NCBI RefSeq assembly: GCF_000801335.2
Contig: NZ_JSEH01000020.1
Coordinates: 1-64,000, forward strand
DNA: 64,000 nt
Direction: 5' to 3'
Source: Desulfovibrio sp. TomC
GTDB taxonomy: Bacteria > Desulfobacterota > Desulfovibrionia > Desulfovibrionales > Desulfovibrionaceae
In this document: positions 6,378-17,406 of the stretch, one piece after another
Position numbering within the stretch: position 1 is the first letter of the stretch
How the letters are laid out: every line of letters starts with the position of its first letter
Program-made: the position numbers and the translations under genes
The notes under the pieces: model-generated
Told to the model about the DNA's origin: nothing
What the model saw: the letters and a program-made list of their open reading frames with translations, nothing else
The model's database searches: none

Positions 6378-6932
6378 TCAACCCACAGGCAGCACCGTGC
6401 GACCGTATTTTTCGTTTAGCACCTCAGCCATGGCCAGATAGCAAGCGCTGGCCCCGCACAGGATACCCTCGTAGCCGGCCAAGCGGCCAATCGCTGCCGA
6501 TTCCAGCCAGTCCCGGGCAGCCAGCAGGAAAAAAAGCACGGTCAGGGAACCGAAGACGAATTTCAACACGAAGTTGCCGCCCAGGGTCCCCAGAAACATA
6601 AACAGGGTGAATATGCCCCAGAGAAAGAGAAACCAGCCCATAAAGGCCTCCGGGGTGGGCTCGGCCAGGCCAAGCTTGGGCAGCATGATAAGACCGCACA
6701 GCGTGAGCCAGAAGAATCCATAGCTGGCAAAGGCCGTCAGGCCAAAGGTGTTCCCCTTTCGAAATTCCAGGATGCCGGCAATGACTTGCGCCATGCCGCC
6801 GTAAAAAATGCCCATGGCCAGGACCATGGAGCCGATGGGAAACCATCCGGCGTTGTGGATGTTGAGTAAAATGGTGGTCATGCCGAAGCCCATGAGGCCA
6901 AGCGGTGCAGGATTGGCCAGTCTGGCATCCAT
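6378..6932 (-). CDS. satP: Acetate/succinate channel of the GPR1/FUN34/YaaH (SatP) family
   Basis: This 184-residue protein begins after a short polar N-terminus with NPAPLGLMGFGMTTILLN, the family signature NPxPLGLxxF. About six hydrophobic helices follow, with a mid-protein segment FGLTAFASYGFFWLTL typical of the family. SatP-type proteins are hexameric channels that move acetate and succinate across the inner membrane. The length matches E. coli SatP. An incomplete oxidiser such as a Desulfovibrio excretes acetate, so either uptake or release is possible. ATG 6932 is preceded by AAGGA at good distance; a longer reading to 7040 adds a non-family leader. It stands alone on the minus strand with a hairpin after it. 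Confidence 0.88.
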   Translation of the reverse strand: MDARLANPAPLGLMGFGMTTILLNIHNAGWFPIGSMVLAMGIFYGGMAQVIAGILEFRKGNTFGLTAFASYGFFWLTLCGLIMLPKLGLAEPTPEAFMGWFLFLWGIFTLFMFLGTLGGNFVLKFVFGSLTVLFFLLAARDWLESAAIGRLAGYEGILCGASACYLAMAEVLNEKYGRTVLPVG

Positions 6933-7054
6933 GATGTGCCGTCCTTCATGTGGGAGGTGGAGCCGGGCGTACCCGCCGCAGGACGCTTCGACCGGAAAGA
7001 CAGGCGGTAAAGACTTTTTCCCGGCCTGTAAAGCCGGCAATAGGCATGAACCGG

Positions 7055-7954
7055 TCAGCCCGTCTCGACCCGGTTGCGCCCGAGATCCTTGGCCGCATAC
7101 AGGGCATGATCGACGCGCGTCAGCAGGGTTTCCAGATCGTCGCCGGTCCGGGCCTCGACCACGCCGAAACTGCAGGTGATGGCGCCCACCTCCGCCAGAT
7201 CAATCCCCGCTATGGCCAGACGCAACTTCTCGGCCAGGACATAGGCCTCGGCCAGACGCATCCCCGGGCAGCTGACCAAGAATTCCTCTCCGCCCCAGCG
7301 TCCAACGGTCGCCCCTGTTGGCACGCCTTGTCGCAACATCCCGGGCAAAGCCCGGAGCACGGCGTCGCCGCGCAGATGGCCATAACGGTCGTTTATGGCC
7401 TTGAAATGGTCGATATCAAGCATGATCAGGCTGTAGGGGGTCCCCTCCTCGGCCCTCCCAGCCAATCCGGCCAGCAGCAAGGTCTCGACATGTTGGCGGT
7501 TGGCCAGTCCGGTGAGCATGTCGGTGGTGGAGAGGCGCACCAGTTCGAGATTGGTCAGGGCAAGGGTGGCATGGGCTTCGGCCAACTGGTTCTGGGTGGC
7601 CTTGAGCTGGGAGATGTCCACGGCAATGGCATAGCGCACCACCCGCCCGTCAGGCCAGGTCATGGCCCGCACCTGCATCTGGTACCAGCGGTCATCGGAT
7701 TCATTGAAATGCTCAAACACCCGGGTTTGCCCGTTGGGCCGCCCCTGGGCGGTCATCAGCTCCGGCAGATGGCACCAGGGACAGGGCGACTCGCGCTCAT
7801 AGAGGGCCAGGTGGCAACAGCGGCCGATATGGTTGCCAAAATGCTCGTGAAAGGCCTTGTTGCAGTAGATGATGCAGTTCGTGGCCGCGTCCACCACATA
7901 GATGCCAAACGGGATCAGGTCGAAATGGCTTTCAAACAGGGCATTCTCCATCAT
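7055..7954 (-). CDS. PAS-GGDEF diguanylate cyclase
   Basis: A soluble 299-residue protein. Residues 1-115 are a PAS domain (FDLIPFGIYVVDAATNCI) carrying a cysteine group, CC then PCPWC. A short coiled link ends in a GGDEF domain (~145-299) with STTDMLTGLANRQ, LIMLDIDHFKAINDRYGH and the active-site GRWGGEEFLV. An intact GGEEF motif predicts c-di-GMP synthesis. The PAS and link are close copies of those in the preceding histidine kinase, so the two genes arose by duplication and carry different outputs. The ATG overlaps the stop of the kinase as ATGA, so translation is coupled. It is the last gene of the five-gene sensory operon. The signal may be redox or metal state, judged only from the cysteines. 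Confidence 0.92.
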   Translation of the reverse strand: MMENALFESHFDLIPFGIYVVDAATNCIIYCNKAFHEHFGNHIGRCCHLALYERESPCPWCHLPELMTAQGRPNGQTRVFEHFNESDDRWYQMQVRAMTWPDGRVVRYAIAVDISQLKATQNQLAEAHATLALTNLELVRLSTTDMLTGLANRQHVETLLLAGLAGRAEEGTPYSLIMLDIDHFKAINDRYGHLRGDAVLRALPGMLRQGVPTGATVGRWGGEEFLVSCPGMRLAEAYVLAEKLRLAIAGIDLAEVGAITCSFGVVEARTGDDLETLLTRVDHALYAAKDLGRNRVETG

Positions 7955-9105
7955 GCGACAGCGACTCCGACCCGAGGCAGGGTGACGATGATGGTGGTGT
8001 GCCCGGGGACGCCGGCGTCAAGCGCGATGTCCCCTCCGTGGGCTTTGGCGGCCAGGGCGGCGGAATAGGCTCCAAGGCCGGTCCCTCCCCGCTTGCCCAC
8101 AGTGACATACTTGTCAAACATCCTGGAGCGTATCTCCGGCGGCACTTCGCCGACATTCGTGACGACAAGGCGGATGGCCTGCGGTCCGGGCTGGACATCC
8201 ACGGCCACGCGACCGCCGTCCGGCGAAGCCTCCAGGGCATTGACAAGGAGGTTTTGCAGCATGGGGCCAAGGAGCAGATCGTCGCCGGCGTATTCCACCC
8301 GGGCTCCGGCCGGCACTGCGCCCCCGGACAGAGTCGTCTCCAGGGTGCGTCCCCGGGAAATGGCCATGGCGCAAAGCCGGGCGCAGGTGCGGCTGGCCAG
8401 ATCCAGGATATCCAGAGGATGGGGGGTGAGGACGAAGGCGCCGGTTTCCAGGCGGTAGAGCACCAAGGACTGGTTGAGCATATCCAACATGGAATGGGCG
8501 GCCTGCTCAATGAGCCCCACAATATGGGCCGCCTCAGGCGGCAGATCGTAATTTTCCTGGAGCACCTGGGGCAGGCCGATAAGCGCGGACAGCGGGGCCT
8601 TGAGATCATGGCGGGCGATGCGCTCCACATGCTCACGCAAATCCATGTTCGCCATCAGGGCCGTATTCTGTCTGGCCAATTCCCGGTTGCGTATGGCCAA
8701 TTCGGCATGGGCCTCGGCCAGCCGGTTCTGCGTATCCTTGAGTTGCGAGATGTCCACGGCAATGGCGTATTTGACCACCCGGCCGTCGGGCCAGCCCATG
8801 GCTTTTTCCTGGATCTGGGCCCACTTCTCGTCGCGTTCGTTATAGTAATCGTAGATGGCGGTCTGGCCGTTTGGCATCCCTTCGGCAGTCAACACCTGCG
8901 GGATGCGGCAATGCAGACACGGGGCGTCATTGTCGTAAAGGACCTTGTAACACGCCCCCCCTTCCACTGGACCAAGGCTCTCCCGGTAGTGGCGGTTGAT
9001 GAAGACCAACTCGTACGTGGCCACGTCCACGACGTAGATTCCGAAAGGGATGACGTCGAAGTGCGTTTGCAACAGGGCGCTTTCGAGCATGGAGCCGCTT
9101 TGCAT
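7951..9105 (-). CDS. PAS-domain histidine kinase
   Basis: A cytoplasmic kinase of 384 residues. An N-terminal PAS domain (FDVIPFGIYVVDVATYEL) has a C-x10-C-x2-C cysteine pattern (ACYKVLYDNDAPCLHC). A helical link containing QNRLAEAHAELA leads to a HisKA domain with ARHDLKAPLSALIGLPQVL and a HATPase_c domain with LLVNALEASPDGG and GTGLGAYSAALAAKAHGG. The His in RHDLKAPL is the likely phospho-site. The start ATG overlaps the stop of the receiver gene as TGATG; a GTG one codon upstream is possible. The likely partner is the stand-alone receiver encoded just before it. The PAS domain is paralogous to that of the next gene. Confidence 0.92.
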   Translation of the reverse strand: MQSGSMLESALLQTHFDVIPFGIYVVDVATYELVFINRHYRESLGPVEGGACYKVLYDNDAPCLHCRIPQVLTAEGMPNGQTAIYDYYNERDEKWAQIQEKAMGWPDGRVVKYAIAVDISQLKDTQNRLAEAHAELAIRNRELARQNTALMANMDLREHVERIARHDLKAPLSALIGLPQVLQENYDLPPEAAHIVGLIEQAAHSMLDMLNQSLVLYRLETGAFVLTPHPLDILDLASRTCARLCAMAISRGRTLETTLSGGAVPAGARVEYAGDDLLLGPMLQNLLVNALEASPDGGRVAVDVQPGPQAIRLVVTNVGEVPPEIRSRMFDKYVTVGKRGGTGLGAYSAALAAKAHGGDIALDAGVPGHTTIIVTLPRVGVAVA

Positions 9106-9479
9106 CACAGGTATTTGGCCACAACGGTATCGAGGGTTTCAGCCAGTTTTTCCTGTTTGACGGGTTTGAGGATATAGCCTTTGGCCCCGGCCTCGATGGC
9201 GTCCATGACCATTTGTTCCTGGCCGTGGGAAGTGACGATGATAATGCAGGCCCCGGGGTGGTCGGCCAGGATGCGCCGGGTGGCCTCAATGCCGTTCATA
9301 TCCGGCATGGTGATGTCCATGGTGGTGACGTCCGGGGCCACCGCGGCGAAGCGCTCCACAGCCTGTTGGCCGGTGGTGGCCACGCCGGCCACCTCGTGGC
9401 CGAGGTCTTCCAGGAGCTTGGTCATTTTTTTCACGGTGAGGCCTGAATCGTCCACCACCAGAATGCGTAGGGATTTCAT
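9105..9479 (-). CDS. CheY-like single-domain response regulator
   Basis: A 124-residue receiver with no output domain. It shows all catalytic positions: acidic pair in ILVVDDSGL, phospho-Asp in TTMDITMPDMNG, Thr/Ser in IIIVTSHG and Lys in ILKPVKQEKL. Single receivers act by docking on targets or as phosphate carriers in a relay. Here it sits between a CheX-like phosphatase gene (3 bases away) and a PAS kinase gene (stop/start overlap), in the operon led by a CheA-like sensor. It is therefore the natural phospho-acceptor for that sensor or for the PAS kinase. ATG 9479 is the only sensible start. Confidence 0.93.
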   Translation of the reverse strand: MKSLRILVVDDSGLTVKKMTKLLEDLGHEVAGVATTGQQAVERFAAVAPDVTTMDITMPDMNGIEATRRILADHPGACIIIVTSHGQEQMVMDAIEAGAKGYILKPVKQEKLAETLDTVVAKYL

Positions 9480-9482
9480 GCC

Positions 9483-10004
9483 TTACTCCTTCACATACTC
9501 AAGTGCGTCGTCAAACAGTTCACCCGGGCCGATCAGATGGATGGCCAGAGCGCCGGCATCGGCGGTCAGCTCGGCCGAGGCGAATTTCGCCCCGCGGTGG
9601 CGCATGACCGACTTGGCCTCGGTGATGATGATGGGCGGGGACAAGGCGATGGAGGGGCCGTTGTTGGCCACGTCGGCCAGGGCATTGCCCACGATGATGT
9701 TGATAATGTCGCCGGCGGTCTCCTGCATGGCGTCCTCGCGCTCCTCCTCGGCAATGTCGAGGTCGGCGGTATAGGCGGCAAAGGCCGCTTCAATGAGCGA
9801 GGCATCGAAACTGTAGGCGAGATAGAGCTTCAGCTGGCCGGTGGCGCTCAAAATGGCGGTCAGGTGGCGCAGATCAAGCTTTTGCACATCATCGAAATGA
9901 AAGGCGGTCTCTGTGGTGGCAAGACCGAGTTCTTCGAGAAAAAAAGTACTGGTCCGTGCCGTCAGCGCGTCCAGAAAGGCTTTCACGTCCAGGTGTTCGG
10001 TCAT
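9483..10004 (-). CDS. CheX-like chemotaxis phosphatase family protein
   Basis: A 173-residue alpha/beta protein. The diagnostic part is the helix AGDIINIIVGNALADV, aligned with the CheX/CheC motif E-x2-N-x3-G, followed by a beta-rich half (LSPPIIITEAKSV). CheX removes phosphate from CheY, using the Glu and Asn of this helix. In this protein Asp stands where Glu is usual, while Asn and Gly are kept. A second motif copy of the CheC type is not seen. The gene starts inside the stop of the CheA-like sensor (ATGA) and ends 3 bases before the CheY-like gene, which makes CheY-P the obvious substrate. Activity is inferred; some relatives in signalling operons may have lost catalysis. Confidence 0.8.
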   Translation of the reverse strand: MTEHLDVKAFLDALTARTSTFFLEELGLATTETAFHFDDVQKLDLRHLTAILSATGQLKLYLAYSFDASLIEAAFAAYTADLDIAEEEREDAMQETAGDIINIIVGNALADVANNGPSIALSPPIIITEAKSVMRHRGAKFASAELTADAGALAIHLIGPGELFDDALEYVKE

Positions 10005-13000
10005 ACCATCTCCCGATCAATTTGACGCTGAGCGCCAGGCAGGGGCACGGTGACAATCAGACGCATTCCCTGGCCCGGCTGGCTTATTACAGAAGCATTG
10101 CCGCCAAGGCGCTCGGCCTCGGCCCGTACGGCGGCCAGTCCCACGCCCCGGCCGGAGAGGTCTCCGACGGTGCGGCGCGAGGTAAACCCGTCACAAAAAA
10201 GCAGTTCCCAAATGGCCCGGTCGTCCATGGCCGCCAGTTCTTCGGCTCCGGCCAATTCCAGCTCGAAGGCCCGCGAGCGCACGGCTTCCACATCCACACC
10301 CGGGCCGTCGTCGGCCACTTCAATGGTCACGCTTCCGTCCCCGGCCCGCACGCGGCAGGTCACGGATCCGGTCTCGGGCTTGCCGGCCGCCGTGCGCTCG
10401 TCAGGAGTCTCCAGACCATGGTCCACGGCATTTCGAAAGGCATGTACCAGAGATTTCGCCAAAGGGCCAAACCGGGTTGGATCAACCAGGACAGCATCCC
10501 CTTCCACGCCAAAGGGCGCCACGAGCTTGCCCCGGCCGGCGGCCAGTCGGGCGACCAGTCGGGGATAGGCCGACAGCAGTTTGCCAATGGGTACATGGCG
10601 CAGATCGCGGGCTGCGGTCAGCACCGCCTGATCGTCGGCCCCAAGGGGGAGCTCGTCCAGCCGGGTCAGCAGCCGTTCGGCCAGGGAGGCCAGGGCGGCG
10701 GCCAACTCCTCGCCGAGACATATTTCGCCGCGACGGTTAAAAAATTCCGGTCCCAGGGACTCGCGCACCACGTCAAGGTCCTTTTCCAGGGCTTCGTCCA
10801 CAGCCCGGTCAGCCAGCAGGGCCTGCACGGCGACGAGGTCCAAAACCGCCTCCCGGCCAAGCCCGGTCAATTGCGTCTCCAGGGCGTCCAGGGCCTTGGC
10901 CACAAAGGCGCATTCGAGCTGCAAAAAGAGTCCCTTGAAGGTGTGCACTTGGCGGTACACGCGATCCAGAGCCCCTCGGCCGTCGGCAGCGGCGGCCACC
11001 AACGCGGCCCCGGATTGCCGGAAATCGGCAAAACTGTCGATCACCGCAAAAAAGTCGTTCTGCTCCCGCACCGCCGCCACCACGCAGGCCAGCCGGTTGC
11101 GCTCCCGGGCCACGGCGTCCTTGAGGCGGGCCTCGCCGGTGACATCGGTGATGACGAACATAAGCTGCCCCCCTTCCAGGGGACGGTAGCCCAGGCGCAA
11201 GGACTGCTCGCCCCGGGTCACCTGCTTGGGCATAAGCGACAGATAGAGGTCCCGGCGGTAGACATCCGGTTCGTCGATGAGACGCCTGATGTTGACGCTC
11301 ATGGCCTGGCATTCGGCCGTATCCGGTGAAAACAGCAGTTCGGCCACGTTTTTCCCTGCGATAGCAACGCCAAACAGCACTTGGCATTCCTGGCTGTATC
11401 GGGGAGCAATCATCCCGTCGCGATCAACGGATAAAAACCCCTGGCCGGCATTGTCGAGCAGCGCCGCCATGTCGCGATTGGCGTCGTCCAGGGCTTCATG
11501 GGCCTGGCGGATGGCCCGGTTGAGCCGGGAGAGCTTGCGGTTCCACCAGACGATCAGGACAAAGACCAGGGCCGCCCCGGCCAACGCCTTCCAGAACTTC
11601 GTATAGTCGAAGCTTTCCTCGAAGGTGACGGCCACCCATTTTTTGATGATGGCGTCGGACTCTTCCTTGGATATGGCGTTGACGGCCTTTTGGAACAACG
11701 AGGCCAGTTCCGGCTCATCGTCCCGACTGGCGATGGACAGGTCAAGTTGGGCTTCCAGACGGCCGGCGATTTTCAAATCGCTGAAGTGGTCCTTGGCGAT
11801 GGCCTGGCTGATGGCCGGCACGGTGTCGATGTAGCCATAGAGTTTGCCGTCGGCCACCAGGCGCAGGCCCTCGGACACGCTTGGCACTTCCATCAGGTGC
11901 ATGTCCGGGTATTTGGCCCGCAGGATGTCCAGGCTGGCGTAGCCGTTGACCACCCCGAGCGTCTTGCCGGCCAGCCCGGCCGGATCGTCAATAAACGGCG
12001 TCTTGGCCCGGGTGGCCACGACCATGGGAAACCGCAGATAGGGTGAGGAAAAACGCAGATAGCCGCGGCGTTCCTTGGTTTCGCCGGCAGTGGCCAGAAA
12101 ATCGCAACGCCGGGAGCGCACGGCAGCCAGGCTCTGGCTCCAGGAACTCGTCGGCACAAGCACCATGGGCACGCCCAGACGTTCACTCATAAGTGTCAGG
12201 AAATCAGCGGAAATGCCCACATGCCGGCCATTTTCGTCGATGCGCTCGATCGGCGCCCAGTCCGGGTCCACACAATACGCCAGAGCCTTCTTGCGACCGA
12301 GGTAGTCGCGCTCCCGATCGGTCAGGGTCACGCCGGTGCGGCCGTCGTCCGGCTTGCCCATGACCGCAGACGCGCCTGCGCCGGCTGGGGTCGCGCCTTT
12401 GTAGATCGGCAGCCACTTGGCGAAAAGCGCGGCCTTCTCTGCATCGTCCACTGCCGCCTGGGCTTTTTGCAAAATAGTGGCCAAAAGCGGCCAGTCCTTG
12501 CGTACCAGGGAAAATATCTCGAAATTGTAGTCAAGCTGGCCGGAAATCTTGACGTTGGCCAGTCCCGCTCCGCGAATGGCATACGCGGCCACGGCCAGAT
12601 TTTCTACGGCGGCGTCGGCCTTGCCGACTGACACCAGGCCAAGCGCCTCGGCCGCGTCATTGGCCGGCAGCAGATCAATGCCCTTGCCGTGCTCCCGGAT
12701 GTATTCGTAAGCCGTACCGCCGTTGCCCGCCGCCACCCGCTTGCCGGCAAGGGATTCCAGGGAATAAACGGCTGCGTCGTCGCGGCTCATGATCGCCAGG
12801 GGAAATCGCAAAAACGGTCCCACAAAAAGCGCGTAATTGGCCCGATCCGGCGTCTTGCCCGTACCGTCGATCATGTCGATGCGCCGCTCGCGCAAAGCGT
12901 CCAGGACCTGCTGGAAATCATGGCCGTCGCCAACCAGGACAAACTGGAAGGCCAGACCGGTCTTCTGGGAAATCAGATTGTAATAGTCGTGAAAAAGCCC

Positions 13001-13213
13001 CTGCAACCGGCCGTCTTCATAGATGGACAGGGGCCGCCAGTCGGTGTCGCTGAACCGGATGACCGGATGCGCTTCGAGAAATGCTTTTTCTTCAGGCGTG
13101 AACTCAAGGACCGACGTGGCGGCCCGCGCCGGGGCGCTCCCCCCCCAAGCCAGACAGAGGATCAGGACGGCCAACAGCAGACGCCACATGGACGCACGAC
13201 AGCAAAAACTCAT
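10001..13213 (-). CDS. Membrane sensor kinase: two periplasmic binding domains, PAS, HPt and CheA-like ATPase
   Basis: A 1070-residue protein with an export signal (MWRLLLAVLILCLAWGG). Two SBP_bac_3 (solute-binding family 3) domains follow, ~40-270 (FSDTDWRPLSIYEDG) and ~300-520 (YCVDPDWAPIERIDENG). A TM helix (~540-556, ALVFVLIVWW) leads to a PAS domain (~575-690), then an HPt-like bundle with HTFKG (~756). Next come a CheA dimerisation-like stretch RDLRHVPIGKLLSAYPRLV and a CheA-type HATPase with HAFRNAVDHGLETPDERTA and GRGVGLAAVRAEAERLGG. This is not an ordinary HisKA kinase: the His-bearing module and ATPase resemble CheA P1 and P4, and no CheW-like domain follows. Amino acids or similar small ligands are probable signals. 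I use ATG 13213 with an upstream GGGGG; the frame extends to 13267. It leads the operon with CheX, CheY, PAS-kinase and PAS-GGDEF. Confidence 0.9.
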   Translation of the reverse strand: MSFCCRASMWRLLLAVLILCLAWGGSAPARAATSVLEFTPEEKAFLEAHPVIRFSDTDWRPLSIYEDGRLQGLFHDYYNLISQKTGLAFQFVLVGDGHDFQQVLDALRERRIDMIDGTGKTPDRANYALFVGPFLRFPLAIMSRDDAAVYSLESLAGKRVAAGNGGTAYEYIREHGKGIDLLPANDAAEALGLVSVGKADAAVENLAVAAYAIRGAGLANVKISGQLDYNFEIFSLVRKDWPLLATILQKAQAAVDDAEKAALFAKWLPIYKGATPAGAGASAVMGKPDDGRTGVTLTDRERDYLGRKKALAYCVDPDWAPIERIDENGRHVGISADFLTLMSERLGVPMVLVPTSSWSQSLAAVRSRRCDFLATAGETKERRGYLRFSSPYLRFPMVVATRAKTPFIDDPAGLAGKTLGVVNGYASLDILRAKYPDMHLMEVPSVSEGLRLVADGKLYGYIDTVPAISQAIAKDHFSDLKIAGRLEAQLDLSIASRDDEPELASLFQKAVNAISKEESDAIIKKWVAVTFEESFDYTKFWKALAGAALVFVLIVWWNRKLSRLNRAIRQAHEALDDANRDMAALLDNAGQGFLSVDRDGMIAPRYSQECQVLFGVAIAGKNVAELLFSPDTAECQAMSVNIRRLIDEPDVYRRDLYLSLMPKQVTRGEQSLRLGYRPLEGGQLMFVITDVTGEARLKDAVARERNRLACVVAAVREQNDFFAVIDSFADFRQSGAALVAAAADGRGALDRVYRQVHTFKGLFLQLECAFVAKALDALETQLTGLGREAVLDLVAVQALLADRAVDEALEKDLDVVRESLGPEFFNRRGEICLGEELAAALASLAERLLTRLDELPLGADDQAVLTAARDLRHVPIGKLLSAYPRLVARLAAGRGKLVAPFGVEGDAVLVDPTRFGPLAKSLVHAFRNAVDHGLETPDERTAAGKPETGSVTCRVRAGDGSVTIEVADDGPGVDVEAVRSRAFELELAGAEELAAMDDRAIWELLFCDGFTSRRTVGDLSGRGVGLAAVRAEAERLGGNASVISQPGQGMRLIVTVPLPGAQRQIDREMV

Positions 13214-13281: not shown

Positions 13282-14139
13282 CTATTCGTTGGGCTGCGAC
13301 AGTTGAAGCCGAATCTCGTGGGTCAGGCGGGCCGTCCCCCCGTCACCTCGAAAAGCCCCGAAAACCGGGGCGGCGTCGTCAGGATGCGGCGAGGCGGCCA
13401 ACACAATATGGCGATCGGCCACGGCCAAGCCGAGAGAAGGATCAAAGCCCCGCCAGCCGCCGCCGGGCAGGCACACCTCGGCCCAGGCGTGCAGATCCTG
13501 CTCGTCGCTGTCAGGATCGCCCTCGTGATAGCCGCTGGCAAACCGGGCCGGAATGCCGACATGGCGGCAGGCGGCCATAAAGAAGACCGTCAGGTCACGG
13601 CAGGAGGCTTCCCCGGCGGCCAGGACGGCGTCGGGATCAAGAATACCCGGTTCGAGGCGAACGCCGGTGCGCAGATTGGCGCTGATCCAGGAGAGCAGGG
13701 CCAGGGCAAAATCCTGGGGTGTGTCCGCGCCGTCCTGGCGCAAGCGTTCGGCCAGGGCCAAGGTGCGCCGTTGCTCCCCGGCCACCGGCTCCAGGCAGGA
13801 TGCAGCCACGGCAGCTTCGGCCCGGGTGAGCGGGATGGGCAACACGGCCCGGGGCGTCTCCACCAGATAGTCGAAGGGATTGCCCCGCAACGTCTCCACC
13901 ACGGCCTCGGTGGTCACGGCAAAATGGTCGGTGGTGTCGACAAACCAGACCATCAGCACCGTGTTGCCAAGGGCATCGGTCACAAGCGTCCGGCCGGCCG
14001 GCTCGGGGGTGATGGCGGCATGAAAGCGCAGGAGCCGCTGGCTGGCGTCGCCGCGCGGCACAAGTCGAACCTGATGCGGTTCCAAAAAGACGCGACACCC
14101 GTAGTCGTAGCGGGTGCGGTGCATGATACGGCAGATCAC
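13282..14139 (-). CDS. Transglutaminase-like cysteine peptidase family protein
   Basis: A soluble 285-residue protein. The N-terminal domain opens MHRTRYDYGCRVFLEPHQVR, the usual start of bacterial transglutaminase-family proteins. The papain-like core shows catalytic Cys in GEASCRDLTVFFMAACRH, His in DLHAWAEVCLPGGGWRG and Asp in FDPSLG. No signal peptide is seen, so it probably acts in the cytoplasm, cutting or remodelling peptide or isopeptide bonds. The start is a GTG at 14139. It lies 3 bases after the Anbu gene and is the last member of the ATP-grasp/alpha-E/Anbu cluster, so its substrate is probably the product of the ATP-grasp ligase. The next operon begins 68 bases downstream. Confidence 0.9.
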   Translation of the reverse strand: MICRIMHRTRYDYGCRVFLEPHQVRLVPRGDASQRLLRFHAAITPEPAGRTLVTDALGNTVLMVWFVDTTDHFAVTTEAVVETLRGNPFDYLVETPRAVLPIPLTRAEAAVAASCLEPVAGEQRRTLALAERLRQDGADTPQDFALALLSWISANLRTGVRLEPGILDPDAVLAAGEASCRDLTVFFMAACRHVGIPARFASGYHEGDPDSDEQDLHAWAEVCLPGGGWRGFDPSLGLAVADRHIVLAASPHPDDAAPVFGAFRGDGGTARLTHEIRLQLSQPNE

Positions 14140-14142
14140 GGT

Positions 14143-14907
14143 CTACTTTGACTCGGACAGGCAGCCGGTTTTCGCGCACACCTTGGTGAGTTTGGAAGCC
14201 ACATTGTCGATCCACTCCGAAGGCAGATTGTGGACCAACCCGCGCAGATGTTCCTGCCACCAGGAGGAGATGTCGGCCAGGTCTTCCTTCTCGTAGCGGT
14301 GCTGCACCATCTCAAGCCCCCCCCGGTTGTACAGCACCACGTCGATGGGAAAATCCACGTCCGAGGAGCTGATGCGGGTGGAGTCAAAGGCCAGACAACC
14401 GACTTTGAGCGCCATACGCAGCGGATCGGAATATTTGAGCGTCCGGTCGAGCACCGGCTTGCCGTAGCCGCCTTCGCCAATGATGTGGTAGGGCGTGCCC
14501 TGGTTGATCTCCACCCAGTTGCCTTCGGGATAGACCAGAAACAGTTTGTGGTTGGCGTCCGCCGTCATCTGGCCGCCGATGAGGACGTGAAGGTTGAAGC
14601 CCAGTCCTGACTCGGCCAAAAAGGCCTTGTCCTCGGTGGCCACCCGGCGCAACTCGGCGGCAAAGGCATTGACGACCTTGTAGAGCTTGTCAAAAGGCTT
14701 GTCGCAGGTCTCCAGCGCCTCTTCAAAATAGGTCAGGGTCTTGTCGCGCACAGAACGCAGCCCGGAGGTCATGAGAAAAAAAGCCCCATGCCCATTCTGA
14801 TAGATGGAGACCTTCTGGGCGCTCGTCAGTTCGTTGCCGGAGGTGATGCGCGTGTCGGCGATGCCGACAAGGCCGTCCTCTACCGTAATACCGAGGCAAA
14901 ATGTCAT
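14143..14907 (-). CDS. Proteasome-type peptidase (Anbu, ancestral beta-subunit family)
   Basis: This 254-residue protein begins MTFCLGITVEDGLVGIADTR, the start of the Ntn-hydrolase fold; Thr2 would become the N-terminal nucleophile after Met removal. Asp in IADTRIT and Lys in SAQKVSIYQNG fit the HslV/proteasome active site. The rest (FFLMTSGLRSVRDKTLTYFEE, and KVGCLAFDSTRISSSDVDFP) matches Anbu, a self-assembling relative of the proteasome beta subunit. Anbu genes are known to sit with a transglutaminase, an alpha-E protein and a circularly permuted ATP-grasp enzyme, exactly as here. No ATPase unfoldase gene is nearby. The gene starts 12 bases after alpha-E. The physiological substrate is unknown. 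Confidence 0.92.
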   Translation of the reverse strand: MTFCLGITVEDGLVGIADTRITSGNELTSAQKVSIYQNGHGAFFLMTSGLRSVRDKTLTYFEEALETCDKPFDKLYKVVNAFAAELRRVATEDKAFLAESGLGFNLHVLIGGQMTADANHKLFLVYPEGNWVEINQGTPYHIIGEGGYGKPVLDRTLKYSDPLRMALKVGCLAFDSTRISSSDVDFPIDVVLYNRGGLEMVQHRYEKEDLADISSWWQEHLRGLVHNLPSEWIDNVASKLTKVCAKTGCLSESK

Positions 14908-14919
14908 GGAGCTCTCTTG

Positions 14920-15894
14920 TCACTGTTGACTGGCGGCGTCAATAGCCGGAAACGTGGCGAAAAAGGTGGCGAATATGGCCTCGTCCACAAGGTTCATCCG
15001 GGTTTGCAGATTATCCGTAAATTCATGCAATCCCATGGCAAACACCTCTTCCACGCCGCTATAGGCCAGATCGCCGCACAGTAACCCGATACGCTTTTCC
15101 GCCGGATTGGCGAAATAGCCCAGGGGCGTGCCGGTAATGGCGTGCAGACACTGCTGGGCCTGTATGAGGCAGCACAGGAGCGAACGCGGGAAGTCATGGT
15201 CGAGCAGCAAAAACTCCACAATCCGCTCGGGCTGGATGCGGCCATGACGGCGACGGTAGGCCTCCAGGGCGCTGATGGCCTTTAAAAGCGCCCCCCACTG
15301 CACGTAGTCAAGGTTGGAGCCGACGTCAGACGGACGCGGCAGCAGGATGAAGTACTTCACATCAAGGATGCGCGAGGTTTTGTCCGCCCGTTCCAGAAGC
15401 CGGCCAAGGCGGAAAAAGTCCCAGGCCTCGTCATGGCTCATGGCGTCACCGGCAATGCCGCTGATGGTCAGATCGCGACGCTTGACCTCGTCGCAGAAGT
15501 GGTAGGGGTTATTGAGCACCGTTTCGTAGCTCCGGGCGGCTTCGCGCACCAGATGGTAAAACGTGTTGATCTGTTCCCACATCTCGGTGGGAATGATCTC
15601 GCGGATGGTGCGGGCATTGTCCCTGGCCCGGGCCAGGCAGTTGACGATGGAGTTGGGGTATTCCGGGTCAAAGGCCAGAAAGCGGATGACGGTTTTGCGG
15701 TTCTCGGCCAGGCCTCGGTCGGTGAAAAGCCCATGGTCGCCCATGGCCGAGACCAGCGGCATCCACTGCTCGCCCCTGCCGCCGGGCGTGTCCAGGGTCA
15801 GGTGCCAGTTGACGTCGAGGAACCGGGCAATATTCTCGGCCCGTTCCAGATAGCGGCTCATCCAGTAGATGGCTTCGGCCACGCGGCTTAGCAT
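14920..15894 (-). CDS. Alpha-E domain protein of the Anbu/ATP-grasp cluster
   Basis: A 324-residue, almost entirely helical protein. The start MLSRVAEAIYWMSRYLERAE is the recognised alpha-E opening, followed by NIARFLDVNWHLTLDT. The middle holds ARDNARTIREIIPTEMWEQI, and the end LQTRMNLVDEAIFATFFATF. The alpha-E domain has no assigned chemistry; it is found only near or fused to circularly permuted ATP-grasp ligases and is thought to support them. The gene sits 39 bases after the ATP-grasp gene and 12 bases before Anbu, so it is co-transcribed with both. The length matches the family. Confidence 0.92.
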   Translation of the reverse strand: MLSRVAEAIYWMSRYLERAENIARFLDVNWHLTLDTPGGRGEQWMPLVSAMGDHGLFTDRGLAENRKTVIRFLAFDPEYPNSIVNCLARARDNARTIREIIPTEMWEQINTFYHLVREAARSYETVLNNPYHFCDEVKRRDLTISGIAGDAMSHDEAWDFFRLGRLLERADKTSRILDVKYFILLPRPSDVGSNLDYVQWGALLKAISALEAYRRRHGRIQPERIVEFLLLDHDFPRSLLCCLIQAQQCLHAITGTPLGYFANPAEKRIGLLCGDLAYSGVEEVFAMGLHEFTDNLQTRMNLVDEAIFATFFATFPAIDAASQQ

Positions 15895-15933
15895 GCAGGC
15901 TCCTTGGATTCGATCATGGCAACGCGCCCGGGT

Positions 15934-17406
15934 TTACGATGCGACATCCGGATGCGGCTGGCCGGAACCGAGCACCCAGGTGTCCTTGCTGCCGCCGCCC
16001 TGGGAGGAATTGACCACCAGGGAGTCGCGCTTGAGCGCCACCCGGGTCAGTCCGCCGGGGATGACCCGGATGTCCTCGCCGTAGAGGATGTAGGGGCGAA
16101 GATCCACGTGGCGGCCCTCGAAGTGATCGTCCACGATGACCGGAGCCCGCGACAGGTTAATGGTCGGCTGGGCTATATAGTTGCGCGGATCGGCCTCGAT
16201 CTTGGCGGCAAAGGCCAGACGTTCCTCGGGTGTGGCTGCCGGGCCGACCAGCATGCCGTAACCGCCGGATTCCGCCGCCGCCTTGACGACCATCGTGTCA
16301 AGATTATCCAGTACATGGCGGCGCTGTTTGTCCTCCCAGCACAAAAACGTCTCGACGTTGTCGATCAGCGGCTGCTCGCCCAGGTAGTAGCGGATCATCT
16401 GGGGCACGTAGGCGTAGACCACCTTGTCGTCGGCCACGCCGGTGCCGGGCGCGTTGGCCATGGCCACCCGGCCGGCCTTGTAGACCTCCATGAGGCCGGG
16501 CACGCCAAGCAGCGAATCGGGCCGAAACACCTTGGGATCGAGAAAGTCCTCGCCCACCCGACGATAGAGGACGTCCACCCGCTCAAGTCCCTTGGTGGTG
16601 CGCATGTGGACGTAGCCGTCGACAACGACCAGATCGCGCCCCTCGACCAGCTCGATGCCGGCCTGCTGGGCCAGGAACGTGTGCTCGAAATAGGCGGAGT
16701 TATAGACGCCGGGAGTCAGGAGCGCGGCAGTCGGGCGGGCGCCGACCTGGGGCGCGATGGAGTGGAGCATGTCGAGCAGCAGCGGCGCGTAGTCGTCCAC
16801 CGACCGGATGTCGATGGTTTCAAATACCTGCGGAAAGGCGCGCTTCAAGATCCGACGGTTGGCCAGCACGTAGGATACGCCCGAAGGACAGCGCAGGTTG
16901 TCTTCGAGCACCATGAACCGCCCGGTCTCGTCGCGCACGAGATCGGAACCGGTGATGTGGCACCACACCCCGCGCGGTGGATTTAATCCCTGGCATTCCT
17001 TGAAATAGCCGGTGGAGGATTCCACCACCGACCGGGGCACCACGCCGTCAGCCATGATGCGGCCTTTATGGTAGACGTCGTCAATGAAAAGATTGAGCGC
17101 CTTGATGCGCTGGATCAGCCCTCGCTCCAGGGCATCCCATTCGGCGGCCTCGATGACCCGGGGGATGATGTCGAAGGGAAAGATCTTTTCCGTTCCCTCT
17201 TCGTGCCCGTACACGGTAAAGGTGATGCCCATATCGTAGAAGGCCTGTTCGGCCGCCGTCTGCCGGGCCAGGATCTCACCGGGCGGCAGAGACTCGATTT
17301 TCTCATGGAGCATCCGGCAACCGTCGCGGGGTTTGCCGTCGGTGGTGAACATCTCATCGTAAAAAGGGCCGGCGTCGTAGTTGTCGAAGTCCATTTTCGG
17401 GGGCAT
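15934..17406 (-). CDS. Circularly permuted ATP-grasp type 2 peptide ligase
   Basis: A 490-residue cytoplasmic enzyme. It opens with DNYDAGPFYDEMF and has PFDIIPRVIEAAEWDALERG, GVWCHITGSDLVRDE, FMVLEDNLRCPSGVSYV and a C-terminal Gly-rich SGGYGMLVGPAA, all typical of this family, in which the ATP-grasp halves are in swapped order. ATP-grasp ligases join a carboxylate to an amine through an acyl phosphate. The genomic link to a transglutaminase and an Ntn-hydrolase suggests a peptide tag or small peptide is made and later cut. ATG 17406 has AAGG eight bases upstream. It is the first gene of the four-gene minus-strand cluster and is divergent from an unrecognised gene 160 bases away. Confidence 0.92.
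   Translation of the reverse strand: MPPKMDFDNYDAGPFYDEMFTTDGKPRDGCRMLHEKIESLPPGEILARQTAAEQAFYDMGITFTVYGHEEGTEKIFPFDIIPRVIEAAEWDALERGLIQRIKALNLFIDDVYHKGRIMADGVVPRSVVESSTGYFKECQGLNPPRGVWCHITGSDLVRDETGRFMVLEDNLRCPSGVSYVLANRRILKRAFPQVFETIDIRSVDDYAPLLLDMLHSIAPQVGARPTAALLTPGVYNSAYFEHTFLAQQAGIELVEGRDLVVVDGYVHMRTTKGLERVDVLYRRVGEDFLDPKVFRPDSLLGVPGLMEVYKAGRVAMANAPGTGVADDKVVYAYVPQMIRYYLGEQPLIDNVETFLCWEDKQRRHVLDNLDTMVVKAAAESGGYGMLVGPAATPEERLAFAAKIEADPRNYIAQPTINLSRAPVIVDDHFEGRHVDLRPYILYGEDIRVIPGGLTRVALKRDSLVVNSSQGGGSKDTWVLGSGQPHPDVAS

Follow-up and report, generated by a model that had tools for sequence, protein, structure and literature searches.

In the survey by Berry, Andrianova and Zhulin (2023, PMC10542144), the chemotaxis kinase CheA is described as lacking a sensor of its own, CheW is found in 100% of 13673 CheAs, and CheC or CheX is fused to the F1 CheAs of Leptospirae. 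A 2010 survey in BMC Syst Biol required P4 and P5 for a protein to count as CheA (PMC2829493). Here we describe a locus in a 64,000-nucleotide stretch of Desulfovibrio sp. TomC (contig NZ_JSEH01000020.1, positions 1 to 64,000; hereafter the window) in which CheA-type catalytic domains are built into a transmembrane receptor kinase (R), followed by genes for a predicted CheX-family phosphatase (X), a stand-alone CheY-type receiver (Y), a PAS kinase (K) and a predicted PAS-GGDEF diguanylate cyclase (G). R belongs to a separate, widespread kinase clade, and we consider it probable that it is a CheA-like receptor kinase, not built for docking in arrays, that drives a dedicated CheY reset by CheX.

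A Pfam search of R returned two SBP_bac_3 stretches and HATPase_c, and no match to CheW or HisKA at E values up to 1. The tandem SBP_bac_3 (Venus flytrap) periplasmic domains are nearest to those of BvgS, and this tandem arrangement is that of the BvgS/EvgS type. R differs from BvgS and EvgS in its core, a histidine phosphotransfer (HPt) domain with a CheA P4 instead of HisKA-HATPase-REC-HPt (Pfam recognized neither HisKA nor a receiver domain, REC, in R), and in its partner, a lone CheY instead of a DNA-binding regulator. With CheA, R has in common a P1-type HPt, the P4 ATPase, and the CheY and CheX partners; it differs in having no P5/CheW, the C-terminus being the end of P4, in carrying two SBP_bac_3 domains and a transmembrane (TM) helix of its own where CheA relies on methyl-accepting chemotaxis proteins (MCPs), and in its P4 falling in a separate clade. 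Because it departs from CheA in these CheW and sensor features, we file R as CheA-like in mechanism, not as CheA.

The HPt scored 16.8 bits in Pfam, under the cut-off of 24.6; a profile of the region matched the CheA P1 structure 1tqg (4.5e-5), and the predicted structure forms a helical bundle around H757. Pfam gave no match for residues 562-721, within which residues 591-690 follow a PAS-like order of strands and helices in the structure model only. The modeled helices at 835-850 and 859-869 are short and may form a P3-like hairpin; the CheA P3P4 structure 4xiv aligns over 825-1059, but with a root-mean-square deviation of 5.9. Fold-alignment matches (VIA-align) covered mainly residues 301-529 and 871-1060. 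The preliminary description of the locus, made from the sequence, had assigned R two SBP_bac_3 domains, a TM helix, PAS, HPt and a CheA-class ATPase without CheW or HisKA. Most of this stands, with the HPt recovered by profile and model but below the Pfam cut-off, and the PAS domain reduced to a PAS-like region in the model. The domain search of the 1070-residue protein suggested there as a check returned CheA-type P1 and P4, not HisKA.

We scanned 84,980 species genomes with a PAS-HPt alignment and kept 79 loci from the best 80 of 144 relatives, on which all counts out of 79 below rest; duplicates occur between locus sets (L038 = L053, L043 = L061, L046 = L073). The loci are labeled Pseudomonadota (38), Campylobacterota (14), Thermodesulfobacteriota (13), Myxococcota (7, a doubtful label, as the source records say only 'Deltaproteobacteria'), Bacillota (4) and Zixiibacteriota (1), with 2 unlabeled. 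Solidesulfovibrio and a Desulfovibrio sp. were the closest relatives with names, which suggests that the window most likely comes from Solidesulfovibrio. In a tree of P4 domains, 84 family kinases and 21 CheAs fall on the two sides of one branch of length 1.06 (Shimodaira–Hasegawa-like approximate likelihood ratio test 100), every CheA here being from a genome with a family kinase as well, and the set representing part of the CheA classes. In the first set, 6 of the 12 CheAs were classed by P4 score and C-terminal tail, our CheW model having missed those 6. Because the P4 tree splits the family from the CheAs, recent and local losses of CheW do not account for the family, and we reject an origin from an ordinary CheA that lost its CheW locally.

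Pfam searches of 57 family kinases (E up to 0.01) found HATPase_c in all 57, Hpt in 28 and CheX in 6, and CheW was not among the matches listed (the first 25 of 31 families). A home-made CheW model matched 0 of 147 family open reading frames (ORFs, overlapping loci included), but this model is weak, missing 6 of 12 CheAs. The tail after P4 is at most 31 residues in 71 of the 79 loci (among these, contig ends truncate L088 and L124, and only part of P4 is aligned in L115) versus 132-160 residues in all 11 newly fetched CheAs. Seven of the 8 longer tails are CheX fusions, and that of L067 is an artefact of a split match, its ATPase ending at residue 916 of 922. The catalytic residues are conserved: the phosphorylated His in 80 of 81 kinases, the N-box Asn in 81 of 81 and the G1 Asp in 79 of 81. 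Without CheW or HisKA and with an HPt often under the Pfam cut-off, the family would be missed by such CheA surveys. In a literature search that left subscription papers mostly outside its reach, we recognized no published account describing the module.

CheX accompanies 64 of the 79 family kinases, as a separate gene within 4 kb in 57 loci and fused to the kinase C-terminus in seven (L070, L075, L077, L080, L095, L100 and L126; the L080 match scores 23.0 bits, short of the cut-off of 27). As a distance control, the 57 separate CheX ORFs lie in 543 kb of sequence within 4 kb of the kinase, and none was found in 417 kb beyond. A lone receiver lies within 4 kb in 60 of the 79 loci. In one fusion locus (L077, 5677-10917) a single 1746-residue chain comprises NMT1, three SBP_bac_3 domains, HPt, a CheA-type P4 and CheX, with a PAS-GGDEF gene directly before it and a lone receiver directly after.

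X matched CheX in Pfam (3.4e-12), and a profile of 37 relatives matched the solved CheX structures 3hm4, 1xko and 3hzh_B; as a single sequence searched against the PDB, X had no match at E up to 10. It has the acid-x2-Asn dyad (D99/N102) and P123-P124, placing it in the same family, with the same motif, as the CheX phosphatases of Thermotoga maritima (1xko) and Borrelia (3hzh), and is predicted to act as a CheY~P phosphatase. What sets the family's CheX apart from these is that it adjoins or is fused with a CheW-less receptor kinase and that Asp replaces Glu at the acid position in 28 of 66 aligned rows (Glu in 38), the Asn being kept in all 66; these rows are 9 seeds and 57 ORFs, which overlap, and exclude fused CheX. 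Y matched Response_reg in Pfam (1.9e-29), an archaeal CheY (2.5e-30) and T. maritima CheY (1.7e-29). It has the acid pocket, Asp, Thr/Ser and Lys of a stand-alone receiver, with D55 as phospho-acceptor and K105; the receiver Asp and Lys are conserved in 61 of 61 rows. In two Clostridia loci (L100, 11092-11862; L122, 3420-4301) the receiver encoded close to the family kinase is extended at its C-terminus, and in this extension Pfam found a weak STAS match in L100 (0.0056, under the cut-off) and none in L122; the extension is a possible clue to output.

K has HisKA (Pfam 2.7e-8; H167) and HATPase_c domains and no receiver, and G has GGDEF (7.6e-35) with PAS and the GGEEF active site of a diguanylate cyclase; no RxxD I-site was seen in the G sequence. 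The PAS of K is seen weakly by Pfam (PAS_8, 0.13), yet it aligns with that of G, and the two are paralogous. They share three cysteines (C-x10-C-x2-C in K; residues 47, 58 and 61 in G), kept in 46 of 46 rows, these being matches of at least 90 bits that leave out, among others, the PAS-GGDEF proteins of L070, L075 and L077. This pattern suggests a binding site for a metal, an Fe-S cluster or heme and is absent from the PAS-like region of R.

The five genes are consecutive ORFs on the minus strand, running from 13213 down to 7055 in the window, with ATGA overlaps at R/X and K/G, a TGATG overlap at Y/K and 3 bases at X/Y (Table 1). Among 99 genomes of the family Desulfovibrionaceae, full-length orthologues of R occur in 3 of 44 genera: in 5 of 5 genomes drawn from its own genus (its own included), 3 of 3 from a second genus and 1 of 2 from a third. 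In 8 of 8 loci opened, X, Y, K and G lie next to one another, in unchanged order except in L045, from the third genus, where a K-X-Y-G set lies together but divergent from R. The preliminary description had read X as a CheX-like protein, Y as a lone CheY receiver, K as a PAS kinase and G as a PAS-GGDEF protein, with overlaps at three of four junctions and 3 bases at the fourth. Pfam, the alignment of the K and G PAS domains and the junctions themselves bear this out, and the five genes, whose separation in relatives would have counted against the proposal, are conserved together in Desulfovibrionaceae. The observation of five genes is real and belongs to a larger pattern than could be shown then.

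Table 1. Genes of the locus (nucleotide positions in the window) and parts of R (amino acid positions, aa)
Feature	Position	Strand	Length
R, receptor kinase	10001..13213	-	1070 aa
X, CheX-family phosphatase (predicted)	9483..10004	-	173 aa
Y, stand-alone CheY-type receiver	9105..9479	-	124 aa
K, PAS-HisKA-HATPase_c kinase	7951..9108	-	385 aa counted from GTG; ATGs just inside
G, PAS-GGDEF predicted diguanylate cyclase	7055..7954	-	299 aa
R part: signal peptide			
R part: first SBP_bac_3	about aa 41-285		
R part: second SBP_bac_3	about aa 310-530		
R part: TM helix	about aa 540-558		
R part: PAS-like region	aa 591-690		
R part: CheA-P1-like HPt	with H757		
R part: possible P3-like short hairpin	aa 835-869		
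R part: CheA-type P4	aa 871-1059		

We detected several further genes around the locus and its relatives. Downstream of G by 110 bases, on the same strand (6378-6944), lies a gene of the Gpr1/Fun34/YaaH family, members of which are acetate or succinate transporters; it adjoins the cassette in 3 of 4 same-genus loci opened and may hint at the ligand of R. Upstream, same-strand neighbors (13282-17406) encode transglutaminase-like, Alpha-E and circularly permuted ATP-grasp proteins and a 254-residue protein for which Pfam gave no match and which we take to resemble an Anbu-type peptidase. Two genomes of the second genus have a further receptor kinase downstream of G (L043, 12835-16839; L044, 2787-6695); Pfam finds three SBP_bac_3 domains in that of L043, and similarity points to three in that of L044. 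The source genome holds a second family kinase, in which Pfam recognized no sensor, adjoining CheY and a divergent CheX.

The reading of R as a receptor kinase for its own CheY rests on its domain content, on the conservation of catalytic residues and of gene linkage, and on the CheX-kinase fusions. A small solute, amino-acid-like or an organic acid to judge from the SBP_bac_3 fold, would bind the tandem BvgS-like periplasmic domains, and the signal would pass one TM helix to the conserved PAS-like coupler, which would replace control through CheW/P5. The CheA-type P4 would then phosphorylate H757 on the attached HPt, from which the phosphoryl group would move to D55 of Y and be stripped from there by X. 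The probable target of Y~P is the switch of the flagellar motor, the K and G pair, or both. K and G themselves may make up a second branch, with the three-Cys PAS detecting redox state, metal or gas and with cyclic di-GMP (c-di-GMP) as its contribution. At the level of sequence, this predicted kinase-CheY-CheX logic is well supported.

FliM was found in all 31 genomes of 32 loci hand-chosen for spread and in 38 of the 41 genomes of the remaining 47 loci, which were searched for FliM only; with two genomes shared, this makes 67 of 70, and the 3 misses are all metagenome-assembled genomes. In the phylum of the window, FliM occurs in 240 of 395 genomes and in 9 of 9 with the kinase (hypergeometric P 0.011, the genomes not being independent). 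This co-occurrence favors a motor-linked output.

Several findings weigh against the reading of R as a receptor kinase with a CheY and CheX of its own. The link with FliM may come from shared ancestry and habitat, Y has no matched motor target, and CheW is present in 31 of the 31 kinase-bearing genomes tested, so canonical arrays probably coexist with it as potential partners; a family kinase in a genome without chemotaxis genes was looked for among these 31 and not found. The structure model of R has a predicted template modeling score of 0.37, too low for domain arrangement, and X carries Asp where solved CheX carries Glu, a conservative variant. No CheX was found in 15 of the 79 loci; in four of these the sequence stops less than 1 kb from the kinase, and in the other 11 at least 1.6 kb follows it. 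Some of the 11 may be false negatives, since the divergent CheX at the second locus of the source genome also escapes our CheX model. K- and G-type genes are absent from many loci, and as K and G lack receivers any coupling to Y is hypothetical. The earlier proposal of a complete pathway that needs no chemoreceptor array is thus supported in part: the kinase-CheY-CheX logic, at the level of sequence, and the absence of a CheW domain hold up, and the roles proposed for K and G and the output (motor, c-di-GMP or both) are hypothetical, with CheW in every genome tested.

The pathway may instead end in c-di-GMP, not at the motor, with Y~P binding K or G (or their PAS) to set cyclase activity and surface behavior. 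A PAS-GGDEF gene lies within 4 kb in 29 of the 79 loci, K and G are translationally coupled in the window, and 10 loci, seven from Desulfovibrionaceae and three from Campylobacterota (L102, L106 and L130), have X, Y, G and a PAS kinase together as a full set. We nevertheless regard this ending as unlikely: PAS-GGDEF was not found nearby in the other 50 loci, neither G nor K has a receiver here, and we noticed no Y-G fusion, though no dedicated search for one was made. The Wsp and other alternative cellular function (ACF) systems likewise have Che-type parts apparently tied to a diguanylate cyclase. They use MCP, CheW and REC-GGDEF, whereas the five window genes include neither an MCP nor a CheW, and REC is missing from the window's GGDEF protein.

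We hold it equally doubtful that K and G are an independent redox- or metal-sensing pair, merely co-transcribed, with R, X and Y as the whole pathway. In 25 of the 79 loci X and Y are present but G and K are both missing, and the three-Cys PAS common to K and G is not evident in R; however, the five-gene set recurs in both Desulfovibrionaceae and Campylobacterota and stays together even where rearranged, in L045. ORFs with a K/G-type PAS but no GGDEF occur in 17 of the 79 loci, and 14 of the 17 have a kinase domain; in L121 the counterpart of K is a HisKA-HATPase-REC protein with a sub-cut-off Hpt match; as this kinase carries a REC, K could also feed Y.

It is improbable that R serves ordinary chemotaxis as a private input, feeding the general CheY pool or using Y as a phosphate sink while a canonical CheA remains the main kinase. 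Lone CheYs can serve as phosphate sinks, and the counts of CheW and FliM given above would suit such a role, but the pairing of most family kinases with CheX, seven times by fusion, and with a lone receiver suggests insulation, and R has no CheW domain for docking in arrays. The low Pfam Hpt score of R might hint instead at a degenerate hybrid kinase of the HisKA type, or at a receptor without activity; this is very improbable indeed, the degenerate HisKA kinase being rejected by the CheA-type P4, the CheA P1 profile match and the conserved catalytic residues.

We found that the CheA-like receptor kinases related to R carry varied inputs. Besides SBP_bac_3, Pfam detected NMT1 (best 2.5e-52; seven matches, weak ones among them, such as that in the window's own R), dCache, HAMP, CHASE4 and extra PAS domains. 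In L079 (4468-10389) and L082 (4330-10467), kinases of about 2000 residues place Ser/Thr kinase-AAA-GAF heads of about 1500 residues on the PAS-HPt-P4 core. In all six such loci tested (L058, L060, L063, L065, L113 and L076; hosts Desulfurivibrio, Deltaproteobacteria-labeled genomes and Gallionella), a [NiFe]-hydrogenase small subunit gene lies upstream of the kinase, with the large subunit also confirmed in L058, L060, L065 and L076, and all six also carry CheX and CheY. These loci suggest an H2-sensing version of the module. They resemble the sensory [NiFe]-hydrogenase systems HoxJ/HupT in their hydrogenase genes. HoxJ/HupT-type systems pair a HisKA kinase with an NtrC-type regulator, whereas the kinase here is CheA-like and comes with CheX and CheY.

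Comparable sets of genes, fitted with other sensors, are found in many bacteria, most of them flagellated. As a clade with its own phosphatase and receiver, the family offers a direct way to test whether a transmembrane sensor can drive CheA chemistry in the absence of an array, and its compactness suits it to comparing the gain and adaptation of arrays with a simple receptor kinase. We tentatively suggest, as a possibility that falls well short of probable, a third bacterial taxis architecture, in which CheW-less receptor kinases of several phyla would bypass arrays, set a dedicated CheY that a dedicated or fused CheX resets, and control motor and c-di-GMP, with inputs (solute-binding, Cache, Ser/Thr-kinase-AAA-GAF and NiFe-hydrogenase) freely swapped.

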